From assembly GCF_003387615.1 (NCBI RefSeq), contig NZ_QUNS01000002.1, forward strand, positions 372,001-436,000: a stretch of 64,000 nt of DNA, read 5' to 3'. This stretch comes from Tenacibaculum gallaicum. Its GTDB lineage: Bacteria > Bacteroidota > Bacteroidia > Flavobacteriales > Flavobacteriaceae. A program made the translations under genes and the position numbers. Below are positions 5,053-64,000 of this stretch, piece after piece. Numbering within the stretch: the stretch's first letter is position 1; the number at the start of each line of letters is the position of its first letter. Under the pieces are notes generated by a model. It had not been told where the DNA came from. It made no database searches and saw nothing but the letters and a program-made list of their open reading frames with translations.

Positions 5053-5151
5053 TGGTTTGTGTTTTTGTGTAGGTTTGATGGAGATTAATAGTACAATTAT
5101 AAATAACGACTTTAAAATTATCAGTTTATTGAAAATAAATCAGTAGTGTAT

Positions 5152-6649: not shown

Positions 6650-8287
6650 CTATTCAAGAACCTCTTCAATAATCTTTCCAGAACATCCGTTAGGGAATTC
6701 TATCTGTAATAAATTAGAAATCGTTGGAGCAATATCTACAATTTCGTATTTCTTTTTAGAAACACCTTGCTTAATTCCGTTTCCATAAAAAATCATAGGA
6801 ATATGAGTGTCATACGAGTATCCTGAACCATGCGTAGTTCCTTTTCTTGAACTACTAGCTATAGTTGACGGATTAGGGATCAAAATAACATCACCCGAAA
6901 ACTTTTGATTGTAACCATTTTGTAAAACATGTAAAATTCCGTTAGTAAACGTAGTAGTTTGCATGGTTCTAGCAGTTACCGATTTATAAATCTTTTTATG
7001 ATTAATTGCTTCATCCGCTATAGTTTGTGCTACGTTTTCATAGTCAAGGTTTAACTCTCTAATCTTATCTTTATTTAAGAAAACCTGGAAGTTAGAAACG
7101 TTTTCAATGATTTCATCCGATTTAAAATGCTTTACAGTAATTTCATTTAAAAAGTTTTTGAAAGCTACAGGCTTTACATAACCAGCAGGTATTTTTAAAG
7201 ACTCTAAATAAGAAGGAACTTGTACAGCAGCATGATCAGCTGTTAAGAATAATGTATAGTTGTCTTTTCCAACCTGAGTATCTAAAAACTTGAATAACTC
7301 TGCTAAATCTTGATCTAAACGTAAATAAGTATCTTCAATTTCTTTGGAAGCAACTCCGAATTGATGTCCAACATAATCGGTTGAAGAATAACTAACTGCT
7401 AAAAAGTCAGTATACTCAGATCTTCCTAAGTTTTCACCAATTATAGCCGCTTTAGCAAAATCAGTAGTGATAGAATTACCGGCTGGAATACCTTTTATAA
7501 TACTATAATTGTTATTACTCTTTCTTAAGGTTGGAATATCATGAGGAAACACAGGTCTTTCTTGTCCTTTAAAAGTAGCTTCAAAATCGTTGTCGTCTTC
7601 AATACTTTGTTTGTAGGTACTAATATCATATAAAGTTTCCCATGGTTTACTTAAGTATTCGTCAGCTTTTCCAGAAGCATTAAACTCTTGTACCCAAGTA
7701 GGCAATTCATTCAAATAAAAAGAAGAAGAAATCCATTGACCTTTATCACCACCATCAAACCAGTAAGCAGCATTTGCTGTGTGACCTGCTGGCAAAATAG
7801 CAGAACGATCTTTTATAGCAATACCAACGGTTTTACCATTCATGTTTTGCGCTAGTTTTAGCTGATCAGTAACAGTTGTAGTTAACATTCTATAAGGAGA
7901 TTTTTTACCTCCATCGCTATCATTACCAATAGTGTTGTAGTTATTATCATCAACACAATAAATAGATTTTTTTACATATTTATCGTACCAATAATTACCA
8001 ATAATTCCATGGTGTGTTGGTGTAGTTCCTGTGTAAATAGAAGTATGCCCCACAGCTGTGTAGGTAGGAATATAATTGTAGTGTGCATTTTCTAAAGAAT
8101 ACCCTTCCCTTAGCAAACGTTTAAAACCATCATTTCCATATCTATTAGCAAATCGAGTTAGGTAATCGTAACGCATTTGGTCAATAACAACACCAACTAC
8201 AAGTTTTGGTTTTTGAGTAGTTGTTTTTTTGTTAACAGAGCAGCTTGTTAAACATATTATGGCTGCTAAAAAAGCTATTTTTCTCAT
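6650..8287 (-). CDS. pafA: PafA-type alkaline phosphatase, lipoprotein
   Basis: 545 residues. A signal peptide with lipobox LTSC (Cys16) predicts an outer-membrane or periplasmic lipoprotein. The catalytic residues of the PafA family can be placed: Asp36 in VVIDQMRYDY, nucleophile Thr77 in TYTAVGHTS, Asn98 in IIGNYWY, Lys/Arg in IKDRSA, and metal ligands in FLTADHAAV and THGSGYSYD. PafA is a zinc-dependent, phosphate-insensitive phosphomonoesterase that releases phosphate from organic esters. It is monocistronic, with the terminator at 6569. The match to Elizabethkingia PafA motifs is from memory, but the motif set is complete. Confidence 0.92.
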   Translation of the reverse strand: MRKIAFLAAIICLTSCSVNKKTTTQKPKLVVGVVIDQMRYDYLTRFANRYGNDGFKRLLREGYSLENAHYNYIPTYTAVGHTSIYTGTTPTHHGIIGNYWYDKYVKKSIYCVDDNNYNTIGNDSDGGKKSPYRMLTTTVTDQLKLAQNMNGKTVGIAIKDRSAILPAGHTANAAYWFDGGDKGQWISSSFYLNELPTWVQEFNASGKADEYLSKPWETLYDISTYKQSIEDDNDFEATFKGQERPVFPHDIPTLRKSNNNYSIIKGIPAGNSITTDFAKAAIIGENLGRSEYTDFLAVSYSSTDYVGHQFGVASKEIEDTYLRLDQDLAELFKFLDTQVGKDNYTLFLTADHAAVQVPSYLESLKIPAGYVKPVAFKNFLNEITVKHFKSDEIIENVSNFQVFLNKDKIRELNLDYENVAQTIADEAINHKKIYKSVTARTMQTTTFTNGILHVLQNGYNQKFSGDVILIPNPSTIASSSRKGTTHGSGYSYDTHIPMIFYGNGIKQGVSKKKYEIVDIAPTISNLLQIEFPNGCSGKIIEEVLE

Positions 8288-8402
8288 TTTATTTTTTCAA
8301 AATTAAAACTCAAAGGTACATAAAAAGCAAGCTAAAACTTGTAAATAAGGCGATGAGTTAATGGTTTTTTAATACTTTAGCAAAAAAGAAAATATATTTC
8401 GT

Positions 8403-9146
8403 TTGATGAATTACATTGAGCATATAGGTAAATACTTTGTAATGCTAAAACAGGTTTTCTCTAAACCTCAAAGAGCAAGAGTATTCCGTGAAGCTTTGTT
8501 TAGAGAAATAGATGAGTTAGGGCATAAGTCGATAGGAATTATCGCTTTTATCTCATTTTTTATTGGAGGAGTAATTGCCTTACAAACCGCTTTGAATTTA
8601 GAAAGTCCGTTTATACCAAAATCATTGATTGGTTTTGCAGCAAAACGATCTGTTATTTTAGAATTTGCACCAACGTTTTGTTCTATTATTTTAGCAGGAA
8701 AAGTAGGCTCGTATATAACTTCAAGTATTGGAACCATGCGTGTTACCGAGCAAATTGATGCACTTGAAGTAATGGGGATTAACTCACTAAACTATTTAGT
8801 GCTGCCTAAAATAATAGCAACTGTTTTCTTTTATCCATTTTTAATAATTTTAGGAATGTTTTTAGGAATTTTTGGAGGATGGGTAGCTGGCGTTTTATCA
8901 GGATTGTTTTCAGGGGCAGATTATATTGCAGGAGTTCAATTAGATTTTGACCCGTTTTTGATTACTTATGCATTGATTAAAACAATAGTTTTTGCCTTTT
9001 TAATTGCTACGGTACCTTCATACCACGGATATTATGTAAAAGGAGGTTCGTTAGAAGTTGGTAAAGCAAGTACACAGTCGGTTGTGTGGACAACGGTACT
9101 TATTGTAATTGCAAACTATTTCTTAACCCAAATGTTATTAACCTAA
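8403..9146 (+). CDS. mlaE: MlaE-type ABC transporter permease
   Basis: 247 residues with five to six membrane helices and the MlaE/YrbE signature FAPTFCSIILAGKVGSYITSSIGTMRVTEQIDALEVMGI. In Gram-negative bacteria MlaE is the inner-membrane permease of the MlaFEDB phospholipid transporter between the inner and outer membranes. The stop codon overlaps the start of the ATPase gene (TAATG), so the two are translationally coupled. An MCE-domain partner (MlaD) is not in the window. Confidence 0.92.
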   Translation: MMNYIEHIGKYFVMLKQVFSKPQRARVFREALFREIDELGHKSIGIIAFISFFIGGVIALQTALNLESPFIPKSLIGFAAKRSVILEFAPTFCSIILAGKVGSYITSSIGTMRVTEQIDALEVMGINSLNYLVLPKIIATVFFYPFLIILGMFLGIFGGWVAGVLSGLFSGADYIAGVQLDFDPFLITYALIKTIVFAFLIATVPSYHGYYVKGGSLEVGKASTQSVVWTTVLIVIANYFLTQMLLT

Positions 9147-9910
9147 TGATAGAAGTAAATAATTTACATAAAGGCTTTAGTGGAGTTGAGATTTTAAAAG
9201 GAATTACAACCTCGTTTAAACCAGGAGAGACAAGTTTAATTATTGGGCAGAGTGGTTCTGGTAAAACAGTGTTTTTAAAATCATTAATTGGTTTGCATAG
9301 ACCCGAAGAAGGAACAATTGTTTATGATGGACTAGCTAATGTTGATATGACGATAGAAGATAGGCGTCAATTTCGACAAGAATTAGGAATGGTATTTCAA
9401 GGAAGTGCGTTGTTTGATTCACAAACAGTAGAAGAAAATGTAATGTTTCCTTTAAAAATGTTTACAAAGCAACCAGAAAGTGAAATGCTAGACAGAGTAA
9501 ACTTTGTTTTAAATCGTGTAAACTTAGAGAACTCGAATAAAAAATTTCCAGCAGAGTTATCAGGAGGAATGCAAAAGCGTGTGGCAATTGCACGGGCAAT
9601 TGTGATGAACCCTAAATATTTATTTTGTGATGAGCCTAATTCAGGATTAGATCCACAAACGTCTATTGTTATTGACAACCTAATTCAAGAAATTACTGAT
9701 GAATATCAAATTACTACAGTAATAAATACACACGATATGAATTCGGTGATGGAAATAGGAGATAAGATTGTTTTTCTAAAAAATGGAGTGAAAGCATGGG
9801 AAGGATCTCACAAAGAAATCTTCAAAACAGATAATGAAGCAGTGGTAGATTTTGTGTATTCATCCAACTTATTCAAAAAAGTTAGAAAAGCATATTTAAA
9901 TGATGTTTAG
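9146..9910 (+). CDS. mlaF: MlaF-type ABC transporter ATP-binding protein
   Basis: 254 residues from the ATG at 9146, which overlaps the permease stop; a longer upstream frame would lie inside mlaE and is rejected. Walker A GQSGSGKT (about 33-40), ABC signature LSGGMQKR, Walker B YLFCDEP and the H-loop NTHD are all intact. It energises lipid transport with MlaE. The ATPase directly following the permease is the usual Bacteroidota order. Confidence 0.93.
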   Translation: MIEVNNLHKGFSGVEILKGITTSFKPGETSLIIGQSGSGKTVFLKSLIGLHRPEEGTIVYDGLANVDMTIEDRRQFRQELGMVFQGSALFDSQTVEENVMFPLKMFTKQPESEMLDRVNFVLNRVNLENSNKKFPAELSGGMQKRVAIARAIVMNPKYLFCDEPNSGLDPQTSIVIDNLIQEITDEYQITTVINTHDMNSVMEIGDKIVFLKNGVKAWEGSHKEIFKTDNEAVVDFVYSSNLFKKVRKAYLNDV

Positions 9911-59087: not shown

Positions 59088-59132
59088 CTACCCTTTTGTT
59101 TAGGTATTTCTTTTTTTGATAACTTATTTTTG
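59088..59132 (+). promoter_or_regulatory. regulon dyad 1 and -7 element before the ThiF gene
   Basis: CTACCCTTTTGTTTAG (59088-59103), a 21-base gap, then TATTTTTG (59125-59132), 14 bp before the ThiF start. One of three copies of the dyad in this locus. The usual TTTG at -33 is missing, so the dyad may replace it as an activator site. Confidence 0.72.
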
Positions 59133-59146
59133 TAATAAAATTAACT

Positions 59147-59902
59147 ATGATGAAACATAGGTATTCTAGAAATAGGTTATACTTAAATCCAAAAGAACAA
59201 GAGCTTATTAAAAGTTACCCAATTTTATTGGGAGGGGCTGGTATTGGAAGTATAATAGCTGAATGTGCATTGCGTTTTGGATTTGAAAATATAACTATAG
59301 TTGATGGAGATCAAGTAGAGGACTCTAACCTAAATAGACAAAACTATACTGAAGGAGACGTATCAATTAATAAAGTAGAGGCTATAAAAGTGAGGCTTGA
59401 GTCTATAAACAGTAAGGCAAATATTAAAATTCATAATTGTTTTTTAACAAGTGATAATGTTGAAGAGTATATAAAAGGGCATAAAATAGCGATTAATGCA
59501 TTAGATTTTTCTTCAGAGATTCCTTTGATTTTTGATGAAATTTGCCAAAAGATGGATATTCCTGTTTTACATCCATACAACTTAGGCTGGGGTGGCTTAG
59601 TGACAATTATTTCTCCTAAAGGATTATCGTTAAATTCTATTGCAAGAAAAGGGAGGGATTTTAATGAATTAAACGTAGTGGAGTATGTTTCTAGTTATAT
59701 GAGATTTTGGGGGGAACCTCAGGAGTGGTTAGAAGATATTATTGATAAATTTAAAAATGAAAGAGAAAAACTGTCACCTCCTCAATTATCAGTTGGCTCA
59801 TGGGTTGTAGCAGGGATGTGTACACACATACTTTTTAATATAACTACACAAAGGGAAGTTAAGAGCTTTCCTGAGTTTTATTTATCTTCATTAGAAGGTT
59901 AA
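59147..59902 (+). CDS. ThiF/E1-like adenylyltransferase in the NRPS locus
   Basis: 251 residues (ATG at 59147; a second ATG follows at once). The E1 Rossmann motif is GGAGIGS, with the key residues of the adenylation site in VDGDQVEDSNLNRQN and the Lys of NKVEA. The C-terminal third (about 165-251) is not recognised. The CxxC zinc pairs of MoeB/ThiF are not visible. It adenylates a C-terminal carboxylate of an unknown partner. It lies behind dyad 1, and its end is 2 bp from the end of luxR. Confidence 0.82.
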   Translation: MMKHRYSRNRLYLNPKEQELIKSYPILLGGAGIGSIIAECALRFGFENITIVDGDQVEDSNLNRQNYTEGDVSINKVEAIKVRLESINSKANIKIHNCFLTSDNVEEYIKGHKIAINALDFSSEIPLIFDEICQKMDIPVLHPYNLGWGGLVTIISPKGLSLNSIARKGRDFNELNVVEYVSSYMRFWGEPQEWLEDIIDKFKNEREKLSPPQLSVGSWVVAGMCTHILFNITTQREVKSFPEFYLSSLEG

Positions 59903-59904
59903 AA

Positions 59905-60663
59905 CTAAATTAGTTTATTATTAGTAGCATATACAATTGCTTCTGAAATATTTGCAACCTCTAATTTTTCAAACAACTTTCTTCTGTGAAATTTTACTGT
60001 ATCAGGAGAAACATACATTGTTTCAGCCATTTCATTAATGGTAAACCCTCTTACAGAGTATCTTAAAATTTCTTTTTCTCTATTAGATAACTCTATTTTT
60101 TCTTCTACTTTCCAGAAATCACCCTTCAAATCATATCTAAAAATTTTATTTTCACCTTTTTTAGATATTCTGATGTTTCCAGAGTTTTGTTCATTGGAAA
60201 TTGATATTATGCAAATAGCTTTCCATATTTTTCCTTCATTAGTTAGAAATAAAGGTGTGAGTTTCTGGTTAATTAAAAGTATTTTTCCTTCTTTATTTTT
60301 TAAATGAAAATCATAGGAAATAGAATGGTATATTCTCTCTTCAATAGGTATTTTTTCATAAAAATCAAAACCAACAGTATTTATTTTTAAAAGTAGCTCT
60401 AAATCTTCAGGTATTACATAATTAAAATAAAAAAGGTATCCCATCTCCTTAACCTCTTCTGCGGTATGGCCGCATAAAAAAAGAGGGTTTTCAGAAACGA
60501 ACTCAAAACCTTTTTTTTGATAATCAATTACATAAATACTTTTGTAAGTGGTTCTAGCAAAAGCTTTTATAGCCTCTGCGTAATTTGCAGTCTGTTTTTT
60601 ATCTTCATCAGAAACATTGTATACAGTGTTTCGTGATGAAAAAAAGTCATTCACGTCATTCAT
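59905..60663 (-). CDS. PAS-LuxR transcription regulator
   Basis: 252 residues. A PAS-like sensor domain (about 38-155: YKSIYVIDYQKKGFEFVSENPLFLCGHTAEEVKEMGY and LKNKEGKILLINQKLTPLF) and a LuxR-type HTH (about 188-250: LSNREKEILRYSVRGFTINEMAETMYVSPDTVKFHRRKLFEKL). It is not the autoinducer-binding LuxR type, so its ligand is unknown. It is transcribed away from the GNAT gene. It is the obvious candidate to bind the three dyads. Confidence 0.88.
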   Translation of the reverse strand: MNDVNDFFSSRNTVYNVSDEDKKQTANYAEAIKAFARTTYKSIYVIDYQKKGFEFVSENPLFLCGHTAEEVKEMGYLFYFNYVIPEDLELLLKINTVGFDFYEKIPIEERIYHSISYDFHLKNKEGKILLINQKLTPLFLTNEGKIWKAICIISISNEQNSGNIRISKKGENKIFRYDLKGDFWKVEEKIELSNREKEILRYSVRGFTINEMAETMYVSPDTVKFHRRKLFEKLEVANISEAIVYATNNKLI

Positions 60664-60773
60664 AGATTAGGGGGGGCTTAGACCCCAAATAAAGTAAATA
60701 ATTTAGTAATAAACAATACTTTTTTTCTAAATGTAACTCTATTCCTGCTTAGCCTCATGAATTCTTGTATCTA

Positions 60774-60819
60774 CTACTATTTTGTGTAGCGAGTTGGTGA
60801 CTTTAACTAGCTAGATTTG
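60774..60819 (+). promoter_or_regulatory. regulon dyad 2 and -7 element before the GNAT-fold gene
   Basis: CTACTATTTTGTGTAG (60774-60789), a 22-base gap, then TAGATTTG (60812-60819), 26 bp before the start. It lies in the divergent region between luxR and this gene, 111 bp from the luxR start. Confidence 0.74.
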
Positions 60820-60845
60820 AGCGTATAATAAAAAATATAATACTT

Positions 60846-61451
60846 ATGGAGAGTTATTTAGAAAGGTTGTCAACCAGTGAGGTGCTTAGTTTATCAAAAT
60901 TCGTAGTTGAGGAAAATTTCAATCATCATTTAGAATACAATGGAAAAATAACGATGGAAAAAGATATTTTATCAGTGTATCAAGAAGAAATAAAATACAT
61001 TGAAAGTTCTAAAATTTTTGTTTGTAAAGATGATAAGGGGGACATAACAGGAGCTATACGAGTTTTAAGATGGAATTATATAGATAAGTTACCAATTGAG
61101 AATATTTTTGGAATAAACCCTTTATTAATTGTAGAAGATAAAGAATTACACGAAATATGGCATATAGGACGATTTGCTATAAAAAAAGGGGGTAAAGATG
61201 TTAATTTGTTTAAAAAATTAATGGTCTGTGCAATATCTCCCATATGCAGTCATGAAGGTAATATAGCTTTTGCTGAATGTGATAGTAAACTATTACGAAT
61301 ACTTTTTTTATTAGGAATTAAACCTAAAATTGTAGGGAAGCCAATTAATTATTTAGGGTCGGAAACCATACCAGTAAGCTTACCTTATTGTGGTCTTATA
61401 GATTTTTACAAGAAAAATAAATGTTTAATCTCAGATAACAAGTTATTGTAA
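60846..61451 (+). CDS. GNAT-fold protein resembling autoinducer/N-acyl amino acid synthases
   Basis: 201 residues. The order of motifs fits the LuxI/FeeM branch of acyltransferases: DDKGDITGAIRVLR (62-75), EIWHIGRFAIKKG (103-115, cf. E-x-S-R-F of LuxI), AFAECDSKLLRILFLLGIKP (141-160) and GKPINYLGSETIPV (164-177). LuxI's catalytic Glu before SR is replaced by His, so an N-acyl amino acid or other amide product is as likely as a homoserine lactone. Located between luxR and the upxY-NRPS genes, with dyad 2 in front. A signal function is inference. Confidence 0.62.
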   Translation: MESYLERLSTSEVLSLSKFVVEENFNHHLEYNGKITMEKDILSVYQEEIKYIESSKIFVCKDDKGDITGAIRVLRWNYIDKLPIENIFGINPLLIVEDKELHEIWHIGRFAIKKGGKDVNLFKKLMVCAISPICSHEGNIAFAECDSKLLRILFLLGIKPKIVGKPINYLGSETIPVSLPYCGLIDFYKKNKCLISDNKLL

Positions 61452-61472
61452 TATTAGGTATGAAATTGAAAA

Positions 61473-61518
61473 CTACCCTTTTGTGTAGCTTTACACCTTT
61501 TTTTGAATACTATATTTA
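61473..61518 (+). promoter_or_regulatory. regulon dyad 3 and -7 element before the upxY-NRPS operon
   Basis: CTACCCTTTTGTGTAG (61473-61488), a 22-base gap, then TATATTTA (61511-61518). The best palindrome of the three (CTACnC / GnGTAG). It leaves an 80-base leader before upxY. Confidence 0.74.
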
Positions 61519-61551: not shown

Positions 61552-61587
61552 TCCCTTGTGATAGGGAGAAGCGAAGCTGTGTTTCGC
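61552..61587 (+). promoter_or_regulatory. two leader hairpins upstream of upxY
   Basis: TCCCT / AGGGA (61552-61556 and 61563-61567) and GCGAA / TTCGC (61571-61575 and 61583-61587, 7-base loop), ending 11 bp before the ATG. They could recruit the antiterminator to paused polymerase or control translation. Confidence 0.5.
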
Positions 61588-61598
61588 AGTTGTATATT

Positions 61599-62120
61599 AT
61601 GATGAAATTTGATTGTGGCTGGTACGTATTATACGTTAAATCTTGTTGGGAAAAGAAAGTACATGAATCACTAAAGGAAATTTCTTTAGAGTCATTTTTA
61701 CCTCAAGTAAAAACAATTAGGCAGTGGAGTGATCGGAAAAAGGTTATAATGAAACCATTATTTCCTTCATATGTATTTGTATATATAAATTCATCTTTAG
61801 GGTTTCATAAAGCTCTTTCTGTAAATGGAGCTTTCTCTTACATTCGCTTTGGTAAAGAATATGCAAGAGTGCAGGAAAAAGAGGTTAATCAAATAAAGTT
61901 TTTAATTGGGGATGAAAATATTGATGGGGTAGAAGTAACTACACAGCGTCCTAAAGTTGGTGAAGTGAAAAAAATTACTTACGGTCCTTTAGAAGGGTTA
62001 GACTGTGAAATCATTAAAGTATCTAACCTTAATAAAATTATTGTACGGATAGACTCGTTACAGCAGAATATTATGGCAACAATTCCTTTGCATATCTTAT
62101 CAGAACCACGTATAAAATAG
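61599..62120 (+). CDS. UpxY-family (NusG/RfaH-like) transcription antiterminator
   Basis: 173 residues from ATG 61599; a TTG nine bases upstream is possible. NGN domain (about 1-105: GWYVLYVKSCWEKKVHESL ... LFPSYVFVYIN) and KOW-like end (about 118-170: GPLEGLDCEIIKVSNLNKIIVRIDSL). UpxY/LoaP-type proteins promote full transcription of long operons, classically capsule loci and in some bacteria NRPS/PKS clusters. It heads the operon carrying the PPTase and NRPS. Confidence 0.9.
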   Translation: MMKFDCGWYVLYVKSCWEKKVHESLKEISLESFLPQVKTIRQWSDRKKVIMKPLFPSYVFVYINSSLGFHKALSVNGAFSYIRFGKEYARVQEKEVNQIKFLIGDENIDGVEVTTQRPKVGEVKKITYGPLEGLDCEIIKVSNLNKIIVRIDSLQQNIMATIPLHILSEPRIK

Positions 62121-62288: not shown

Positions 62289-62948
62289 TTGCTTTTACTT
62301 TATTCTAAAATACAAGAAGTTAAACATGAAGATCTTTTAACGGCTTATTTAAGTTCTTTTCCAAGGAAATATAAAGAAAGACTTTTAAGGTATCAAAGAT
62401 GGCAAGACGTTCAATTATCCTTATTAGGACGATTGCTAATAAAAGAAGGTCTATCATACTTTGAAAAAGAAATAGATTTTAAAAAATTGATGTTTACAGA
62501 GTATGATAGACCTTATTTTAAAGATAACGACATACAGTTTAATGTTTCTCATTCAGGAGAATTAGTAGTTGTAATTTTTACAAATAAACTTGTGGATATA
62601 GGTATAGATATAGAGAAATCACATCCTATAAAAGTAACAGAGTTTAAGGAGCAAATGACTGGATATGAAGAGCAAAAAATATTTAATTCAGAGTGTCCTC
62701 AAGATGAGTTTTTTAAGTACTGGACACAAAAAGAAGCAGTTTTAAAAGCAACAGGAAGAGGGTTGTCAATTCCACTAGAATCATTTGAAATAAAAAACAA
62801 TAAAACTAGTGTTGAAGCTAAGACATTTTTTGTTTCAAAGATAGATTTGCAGAAAGAATATACATGTCATGTTTCTCAAAATAAGAAGTTTACTAGTGAA
62901 GATATTACAGTAAAAAAAATTGATATTAAAGAGTTTTTAGAGATATAA
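62289..62948 (+). CDS. Sfp-type 4'-phosphopantetheinyl transferase
   Basis: 219 residues starting at TTG 62289; an in-frame TAA lies at 62283-62285 and no ATG follows, so TTG must start the gene. Motifs: FNVSHSGE, IGIDIEK (Mg ligands Asp107, Glu109) and FKYWTQKEAVLKATGRGL (Glu149). It transfers phosphopantetheine from CoA to carrier domains, here probably of the NRPS that starts 50 bp downstream. Confidence 0.9.
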   Translation: MLLLYSKIQEVKHEDLLTAYLSSFPRKYKERLLRYQRWQDVQLSLLGRLLIKEGLSYFEKEIDFKKLMFTEYDRPYFKDNDIQFNVSHSGELVVVIFTNKLVDIGIDIEKSHPIKVTEFKEQMTGYEEQKIFNSECPQDEFFKYWTQKEAVLKATGRGLSIPLESFEIKNNKTSVEAKTFFVSKIDLQKEYTCHVSQNKKFTSEDITVKKIDIKEFLEI

Positions 62949-62998: not shown

Positions 62999-64000
62999 TT
63001 GGATACTATTAAAGAACAAATAAAAGAAGACTATTGGTCTCGAAAGGTTGAAAGAATTGGTGTTATAAATACTTTAAACTTTAAAGTAGATTCTAAAATA
63101 GAAGAGGTTATAAATTTAGAAAGAATATCATACTTTCTTAAAATTTCTAATTCTGGAGAGGCTGCAGAATATACAATTTTATTAAGTGTATTTAATGCTT
63201 TGTTAAACCGATATTTTGAAGTTAAAGGGGTAGTATCTACAACTAATTTAAAAGATGGGGCTTTGTTATTTGTTTTATCTACAGAAAATGGGACTAAATT
63301 TTTTAAAGAGTATCTCAATGAAGTTAAAAATGAAGTTCAGAAGGCTTATAAATATTCTAATGTTGAAATAGAGAACACTTTTGATAGTTTAGTAAAAAGC
63401 TCCCTTTATTCTTTTACTTATAATAGTTTAGATAGTGCTTCTAGCCTAATACAAACTCCTTTTAATTTACATATAGAGAAAACTAATCAAGGGTTATCTG
63501 TCAGAATTTTGTTTGATGAGGATTTTGTTAGCGAGAAAAAAGTTTATAGCTTTTTTAAATCTTTTGAAAACTGGTTGGTTAATTTAGAAAGTTATATTGA
63601 TAAAGAAATAAGGAGTATTCCACTGGTGTTTAAAGAAGAACGTTCTAAGCTATTAAAAGAACTCAATAATACTTCCTTAAAATACAACGAAAGTACAACT
63701 CTTGTTACTCTTTTTGAAAAACAAGTGTTTAAAAGCCCTAAAAAAACTGCATTTAAGTTTAAAGATGAAGAAATAAGTTATCAGTCATTAAATAATGAAG
63801 TTAATCGATTTGCGAGGTTTTTAATTCAAAATAAAGGAGTACAATCAGGAGATATAATAGGAATAAAGTTAAAAAGAAATGAAAAGCTATTAACAACAAT
63901 TTTAGGTGTTTTAAAAGTAGGAGGAACCTATGTGCCTATTGATATTAATTATCCTAAAAGTAGAATAGAATATATCCTAACAGATAGTAAGTCTAAATTA
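62999..64000 (+). CDS. non-ribosomal peptide synthetase, first 334 codons (cut by window edge)
   Basis: An open frame from TTG 62999 to the window end (in-frame TAA at 62978-62980, no ATG near). The first 205 residues resemble the C-terminal half of a condensation domain (EDYWSRKVERI ... SLYSFTYNSLDSASSL ... FNLHIEK) and lack the HHxxxDG half. An adenylation domain follows from about 230 (TLVTLFEKQVFKSPKKTAFKF, EISYQSLNNEVNRFARFL, and A2-like LKVGGTYVPID at 305-315). The specificity pocket is outside the window. The initiation module of a peptide pathway is inferred. Confidence 0.9.
   Translation, partial: MDTIKEQIKEDYWSRKVERIGVINTLNFKVDSKIEEVINLERISYFLKISNSGEAAEYTILLSVFNALLNRYFEVKGVVSTTNLKDGALLFVLSTENGTKFFKEYLNEVKNEVQKAYKYSNVEIENTFDSLVKSSLYSFTYNSLDSASSLIQTPFNLHIEKTNQGLSVRILFDEDFVSEKKVYSFFKSFENWLVNLESYIDKEIRSIPLVFKEERSKLLKELNNTSLKYNESTTLVTLFEKQVFKSPKKTAFKFKDEEISYQSLNNEVNRFARFLIQNKGVQSGDIIGIKLKRNEKLLTTILGVLKVGGTYVPIDINYPKSRIEYILTDSKSKL

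Follow-up and report, generated by a model that had tools for sequence, protein, structure and literature searches.

It was found that three copies of a 16-bp dyad in the window (the whole 64-kb stretch of Tenacibaculum gallaicum DNA analysed here) very probably serve as operators of the LuxR-type regulator encoded among them. As predicted from sequence, they would belong to an N-acyl-cyclolysine (ACL) quorum-sensing cassette, in which they would drive both autoinduction and a neighbouring NRPS operon of the peptide-antibiotic type. The locus is a member of the published ACL signalling system. It is placed there because of the title of a PDB entry, 9EGB, and a 2026 review (PMC13419125), which, in its available part, credits the N-acyl-cyclolysines of Bacteroidota to Linares-Otoya et al. 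(Nature 2025, 10.1038/s41586-025-09418-9). The sequence-only reading in which the dyads were noticed did not recognise thiF, luxR and gnat together as a known signalling cassette. The features are collected in Table 1.

Table 1. Dyads, promoter elements and genes of the cassette and its cargo operon (positions in the window)
Feature	Position	Strand	Remarks
Dyad 1, CTACCCTTTTGTTTAG	59088..59103	+	proposed AclR operator, thiF promoter
-7-like element, TATTTTTG	59125..59132	+	21 bp past dyad 1
thiF, aclA homologue (ATP-dependent cyclase, E1-like)	59147..59902	+	Pfam ThiF 1.5e-30; 94% to PDB 9EGB
luxR, LuxR-type regulator (putative AclR)	59905..60663	-	GerE DNA-binding domain, weak PAS match
Dyad 2, CTACTATTTTGTGTAG	60774..60789	+	proposed operator, gnat promoter
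-7 element, TAGATTTG	60812..60819	+	22 bp past dyad 2
gnat, GNAT-fold N-acyltransferase	60846..61451	+	proposed signal synthase (amino-acid N-acylation); FeeM-like homologues, model
Dyad 3, CTACCCTTTTGTGTAG	61473..61488	+	proposed operator, UpxY-PPTase-NRPS operon
-7-like element, TATATTTA	61511..61518	+	22 bp past dyad 3
NusG/UpxY-like antiterminator	61590..62120	+	first cargo-operon gene; Pfam NusG 1.6e-17; listed from TTG, probable ATG at 61599 or 61602
4'-Phosphopantetheinyl transferase (PPTase)	62289..62948	+	cargo operon; Pfam ACPS 1.1e-15; listed from TTG
Start of a 3331-aa NRPS	62999..64000, extends past window	+	3 condensation, 3 adenylation, 3 carrier domain matches

A ThiF profile matches the PDB entries 9EGB, 9EGC and 9EGD at 6e-145. 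A fold search led to the title of 9EGB, 'AclA from Tenacibaculum discolor in complex with substrate'; the ThiF model used for it has a middling mean pLDDT of 77.9 and served only to reach this title. By BLAST, the 9EGB protein is 97% identical to the ThiF of Tenacibaculum larymnensis (locus L072) and 94% identical to that of the window over 249 residues. A literature search for papers citing the 9EGB codes found none. Homology to AclA is no proof of the substrate. Oxazolone synthesis (PMC12856293 and PMC12479983, in their available parts) was also considered as the identity of the ThiF and GNAT pair, and was displaced by the 9EGB title and the ACL review.

The GNAT protein is a putative amino-acid N-acyltransferase of the FeeM/AHL-synthase-like kind, as judged from its homologues and a structure model. 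No Pfam family was found for the protein of the window itself at E up to 5. Among ten homologues, eight match the FeeM (N-acyl amino acid synthase) family, the best at 2.4e-5, and one matches the Autoind_synth (LuxI) family at 0.01. For the model (mean pLDDT 90.5), the closest solved structure is FeeM (Z 16.2, rmsd 3.0, 170 aligned), followed by LasI (14.8) and TofI (14.7). RpaI and BjaI (14.6-14.4) come next alongside general GNATs, which score just slightly under FeeM and LasI.

The regulator, which I take to be AclR, had been labelled PAS-LuxR. The LuxR half of this label holds, with a GerE domain, while the PAS half is weak: PAS_3 was found in 6 of 15 orthologues (best 4.1e-4), and the match in the window's own protein stands at 0.016. 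Five families match the window's protein at E up to 1, and 25 of 27 are listed for the 15 orthologues; no AHL-binding domain is among them. A receiver domain was likewise not matched in the window's protein at this threshold.

The three dyads are the sole strong copies in the window, and the gaps in Table 1 bear out the spacing of 21-22 bp first claimed for them. The pattern CTACYMTTTTGTKTAG has three exact matches in the 64 kb, which are the three dyads. When up to three mismatches are allowed, there are 10 matches against a shuffle mean of 8.4. Thus, the near-exact form alone is informative, and the case rests on conservation and spacing. A weight matrix built from 202 sites, the window's three included, gives the dyads 26.8, 21.3 and 20.7 bits, the top ranks in the window; the next-best place, excluding the reverse strand of the dyads, reaches 10.7 bits. 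This ranking agrees with the earlier claim that no full copy lies elsewhere in the window. Near position 5072, where a half-like match had been noted, the best 16-mer has five mismatches to the palindromic consensus and is therefore no site. Dyad 1 differs in having an imperfect arm (TTAG) as well as the 21-bp gap. By the site rule given below, the promoters of the window carry a single dyad each.

Is the dyad kept in other genomes? LuxR orthologues were found at 1e-20 in 17 of 299 genomes of the family, the window's genome included. A profile-guided scan of a public genome collection gave 220 stretches with a LuxR relative, and the best 80 of the 220 are the loci named here. They include Tenacibaculum, Kordia, Aquimarina, Flavobacterium, Zobellia, and others, and the nearest among these 80 is that of T. 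larymnensis (98% in LuxR). A gnat gene lies near luxR in 60 of the best 80 of 220 loci; thiF lies within the fetched stretch in 55 of those 60, and it is more than 6 kb away in 7. When the phylum was sampled evenly, the GNAT profile (1e-15) was found in 11 of 395 genomes and the ThiF profile (1e-35) in 12 of 395.

A site was called where the CTAC/GTAG arms have at most one mismatch and at least three of the four central bases are A or T, a rule set after inspection of the first ten loci. By this rule, a dyad lies upstream of gnat in all 61 loci (the window and 60 others), which are not independent trials, since they are mutually related and eight of them are the window or what seem to be genomes inspected before the rule was fixed. 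In the controls, 27 of 626 other genes of the same loci have a dyad, and 100 dinucleotide shuffles gave a mean of 2.74 and a maximum of 7 of 61. The dyads are kept with luxR across genera, the kind of conservation that had been named as support for the sites. By the same rule, a dyad lies upstream of thiF in 34 of 58 loci (absent in 24) and downstream of gnat in 43 of 60 (absent in 17). The arms hardly vary in the 202-site matrix, with G (75%) or A (25%) as the last base; C prevails at position 6, the centre is rich in T and A, and G stands at position 11 in 97%. Two genomes of another family in the same order (L193 and L194) keep the dyad between gnat and luxR. In L195, from another order of the class, no dyad was found under the strict rule, and a variant, TTACCCAATTGGGTAT, lies at the same 22-bp gap; this is one observation. 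A second, diverged gnat-thiF pair (L196), which has no luxR nearby, showed no dyad upstream.

The cargo behind the cassette varies between genomes while the gnat dyad stays. Among 39 post-gnat proteins scanned, examples are NusG-like genes, AraC, cNMP-binding and outer-membrane efflux proteins, HlyD, C39-peptidase ABC exporters, OMP beta-barrel, radical SAM, carbamoyltransferase, O-antigen-ligase-like proteins, and prephenate enzymes; several have no family.

The promoter geometry was measured from the gene-proximal dyad of 132 promoters (33 of thiF, 61 of gnat, and 38 after gnat). Of the 132, 98 have a TAnnTTTG in the 54 bp downstream of the dyad, and in 96 of these 98 it starts exactly 22 bp past the dyad. 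The two promoters with a 21-bp gap are those of thiF in the window and in L072. A conserved TTG or TTTG was sought in the 22-bp gap and was not found, in keeping with the earlier observation that the TTTG box at -33 is missing. In the region divergent from luxR, 54 of 61 cassettes have the dyad and TAnnTTT at gap 22 (7 do not), as do 15 of 18 loci with luxR alone; at other gaps from 14 to 32, the same pair was found in 0-4 of the 61 and 0-2 of the 18. The -7 element of Bacteroidetes starts at -11 or -12. Thus, the 22-bp gap would put the centre of the dyad near -41.5, close to the -41 first proposed, if this position of the -7 element applies. Among 70 pairs of adjacent dyads, 57 show a distance of exactly 38 bp, and many promoters would therefore have a second dyad near -79.5. 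Class II activator-dependent promoters combine an activator site near -41.5 with a degenerate -33 element, and the fixed gap to TAnnTTTG without a conserved TTG or TTTG is seen here at predicted class II-like promoters. The sequence evidence supports the operator layout well.

Operators by themselves do not give the sign of control. The dyads could instead serve repression: the LuxR protein, or some other regulator, would keep RNA polymerase off the promoter until the signal releases it. I consider this unlikely, because a repressor site need not hold one spacing, whereas the gap found here is fixed and has the class II activator layout.

How far the proposed operators reach was judged from whole genomes. 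Loose forms of the motif, either with up to three mismatches or with the arms only (CTACNNWWWWNNGTAG), were rejected as search tools, since shuffles or reversed controls give about as many matches and these forms do not discriminate. The strict form CTACHCTWWWGKGTAR discriminates where the loose forms fail: it occurs at 16 places over 14 LuxR-bearing genomes, 13 of them within the LuxR locus, against 7 matches of the reversed control, and it recovers one of the window's three dyads only. In the 3.42-Mb genome of the window, CTACNNTTTTGTNTAG has four exact matches, three being the dyads of the window, so that the genome scan that had been suggested finds the site rare. The fourth match, at C1:153486 on the minus strand, overlaps a 110-aa open frame at its end; among the open frames listed on that strand, the nearest starts some 645 bp behind the match. 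Dyads 2 and 3 are the two exact matches of the composite CTAC-8-GTAR-22-TAnnTTT in this genome (reversed control, two). With an extra G and one mismatch allowed, it has four, the other two being poor (reversed control, one). Since strict copies lie mostly in the LuxR locus and composite matches are few, the regulon looks essentially local, as far as such scans predict. Unlinked composites with near-perfect dyads were found in the genomes G259 (two), G248, and G383, and are candidate exceptions. The G248 composite and one of those in G259 precede genes resembling outer-membrane barrel proteins, as judged by eye from the N-terminus.

Eighteen luxR loci have neither gnat nor thiF nearby, and 15 of these solos keep the gap-22 composite, the others being L131, L133, and L147. 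The A/T filter on the dyad centre hides six solo operators (9 of 18 filtered versus 15 of 18 unfiltered). A GNAT homologue (1e-15) was absent in 16 of 17 solo genomes searched, whose completeness is not given; the remaining one has a weak GNAT-like match (3e-21) with three stops. These solos bear on the question of what binds the dyad. The LuxR protein is a putative binder, and a transcription factor encoded elsewhere might bind instead, the adjacent LuxR acting on something else. This is very unlikely, since the dyad is kept beside luxR even where gnat and thiF are not nearby (15 of the 18 solos), is retained in another family (L193 and L194) and, as a variant, in another order (L195), and its strict copies are rare elsewhere in LuxR-bearing genomes. 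In addition, its TAC/GTA half-sites suit binding of the GerE/NarL type.

The dyad after gnat often lies in coding DNA. In 28 of 60 loci it makes up the last 16 bases of gnat, the protein ending in YSLV, YSFV, YTFV, YTLV, or YPLV, and 22 of these 28 have a second dyad at -54, within the codons of an LPxxVV-like tail. Such cases would fit conservation of the GNAT C-terminus rather than of the DNA. In the window, L072, L082, L091, and L115, however, gnat ends earlier (in the window, dyad 3 lies 21 bp beyond it), and the non-coding dyad keeps the 22-bp gap to TAnnTTT. Thus, the DNA seems to be the conserved thing, and conservation as coding sequence is highly improbable. That the dyads arose by chance or composition, from T-rich DNA near AT-rich promoters, would agree with the shuffle-like frequency of the pattern at three mismatches, but is practically negligible in view of the rarity in genomes, the 61 of 61 gnat regions against their controls, the spacing in 96 of 98 promoters, and the gap-22 composites.

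The preferred reading, operators of an ACL-type LuxR regulator, can be compared with known systems. NarL/GerE response regulators share the GerE HTH and the TAC half-site, which is typical of GerE/NarL binding. The NarL operator has a 7-2-7 arrangement, whereas the half-sites here abut, and the protein of the window has no receiver-domain match at the threshold above. The lux system has a dyad near -42 and autoinduction. Its GNAT-fold synthase, LuxR-type regulator, dyad position, and, presumably, autoinduction are shared by the cassette of the window. In contrast, this cassette has a second enzyme (ThiF), its synthase is nearer to FeeM than to LuxI by the profiles of homologues, its regulator matches no AHL-binding domain, and its operator is 16 bp long with CTAC/GTAG arms. 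Neither an Autoind_synth synthase nor an autoinducer-binding domain in the regulator, as expected of a LuxI/LuxR member, was thus found in the window.

The likeness to the ACL system is closer. An AclA orthologue (the ThiF cyclase), an N-acyltransferase with a putative substrate, and a LuxR-type regulator, the putative receptor, with a GerE domain and a conserved neighbourhood, lie in one cassette beside a secondary-metabolite operon; no difference from the ACL system is known to me. Adjacent operons for secreted products, another ACL feature, are candidates for regulation by the dyads that precede diverse cargo downstream of gnat. The available parts of PMC13419125, PMC12565237, and PMC12561686 contain no description of an ACL operator. 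The OxzAB, TyzACB, and TrzAS oxazolone pathways, as given in the available part of PMC12856293, also combine an N-acyltransferase with a ThiF-like cyclase acting on an N-acyl amino acid. They differ in having a flavin-dependent oxidase as partner; by Pfam, no such oxidase is fused to the ThiF of the window. That part of the paper describes no LuxR operator and calls the function unresolved.

In the proposed mechanism, the GNAT enzyme would acylate an amino acid, possibly lysine, as in the published ACL system. In the system of Linares-Otoya et al., L-lysine is reportedly acylated, AclA carries out an ATP-dependent cyclisation, and AclR is the receptor; autoinduction is also reported, as is control over co-localised operons. 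ThiF/AclA may then activate the carboxylate with ATP and close the ring. The product would build up with cell density and bind the N-terminal domain of the LuxR protein. A LuxR dimer would bind the dyad near -41.5 and recruit RNA polymerase to a promoter with the -7 element TAnnTTTG and without a -33 box. Dyads 1 and 2 would raise thiF and gnat, which amounts to autoinduction, and dyad 3 would switch on the UpxY-PPTase-NRPS operon. The sites, their spacing and conservation, and the identities of the genes come directly from the analysis; I infer binding, activation (the sign of control), the structure of the signal, and the dependence on density.

A broader reading is tentative, and I hold it to be possible rather than probable. 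The ACL receptor family may read a fixed module (the 16-bp dyad, 22 bp, and TAnnTTTG), partly within the last codons of the synthase gene; the solos may be eavesdroppers on the ACL signals of neighbours; and ACL-controlled operons, unlinked ones too, might be findable throughout genomes from sequence alone. The module often has a second dyad 38 bp further upstream, and it occurs across genera and families; a single locus from a second order has a variant of it. It may also have spread with the solos. The repeat, unexplained before, can now be read as a control module of a signalling system recently discovered in Bacteroidota. From this module, signal-controlled operons could be predicted, here the NRPS cluster, and it may serve as a search pattern for operons under ACL control and for silent biosynthetic clusters, while receptors without a synthase may listen to their neighbours.

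In the LuxR solos, the 18 luxR loci with no gnat or thiF gene nearby, it was found that the promoter divergent from luxR, which consists of the 16-bp dyad proposed as the operator, a 22-bp spacer and a TAnnTTT element, is kept in L117, L120, L121, L127, L129, L130, L135-L138, L144-L146, L148 and L150. In five of the nine solos inspected, 331-613 bp separate this promoter from the next listed open frame (>80 aa), a gap large enough to hold a gene for a small peptide or an RNA. At L129, a nearby protein resembles a RiPP leader when judged by eye. The genome of L138, whose solo LuxR retains the operator, also carries a GNAT-like match (3e-21) at another locus, L230, interrupted by three stop codons.

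A leader element like CCATGTGACTGG..AGCGAAGCTATG is common to the window and to the cassette-related loci L072, L084, L086, L095, L111, L112 and L115, with 12 invariant columns among the eight sequences compared. It lies upstream of the first cargo gene, which is NusG/UpxY-like or of like size; among these eight, Pfam assigns it to NusG only in the window, L084 and L095. The element is possibly a recruitment site of the NusG paralogue.

The ThiF of L075 (T. discolor DSM 18842) is absent from the eight best matches to PDB 9EGB, the solved T. discolor AclA. The structure therefore probably derives from another T. discolor strain or from a second locus. Genome G383 has a second, diverged gnat-thiF pair at L196, with no luxR nearby and no dyad found ahead of it; the N-acyl compound that this pair yields may be a different one.

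Unlinked to the cassette, four operator-promoter composites were found whose dyads are near-perfect. Two of the four lie upstream of genes resembling outer-membrane barrel proteins, and all are possible targets of N-acyl-cyclolysine (ACL) signalling.

Coordinates of the leader element, the second gnat-thiF pair and the unlinked composites
Feature	Sequence	Position
Leader element	window	61553-61581
Second gnat-thiF pair (L196)	G383 C1:1018001-1036000	7949-9425
Unlinked composite	G259 C1	249148
Unlinked composite	G259 C24	169529
Unlinked composite	G248 C1	5547539
Unlinked composite	G383 C5	13659
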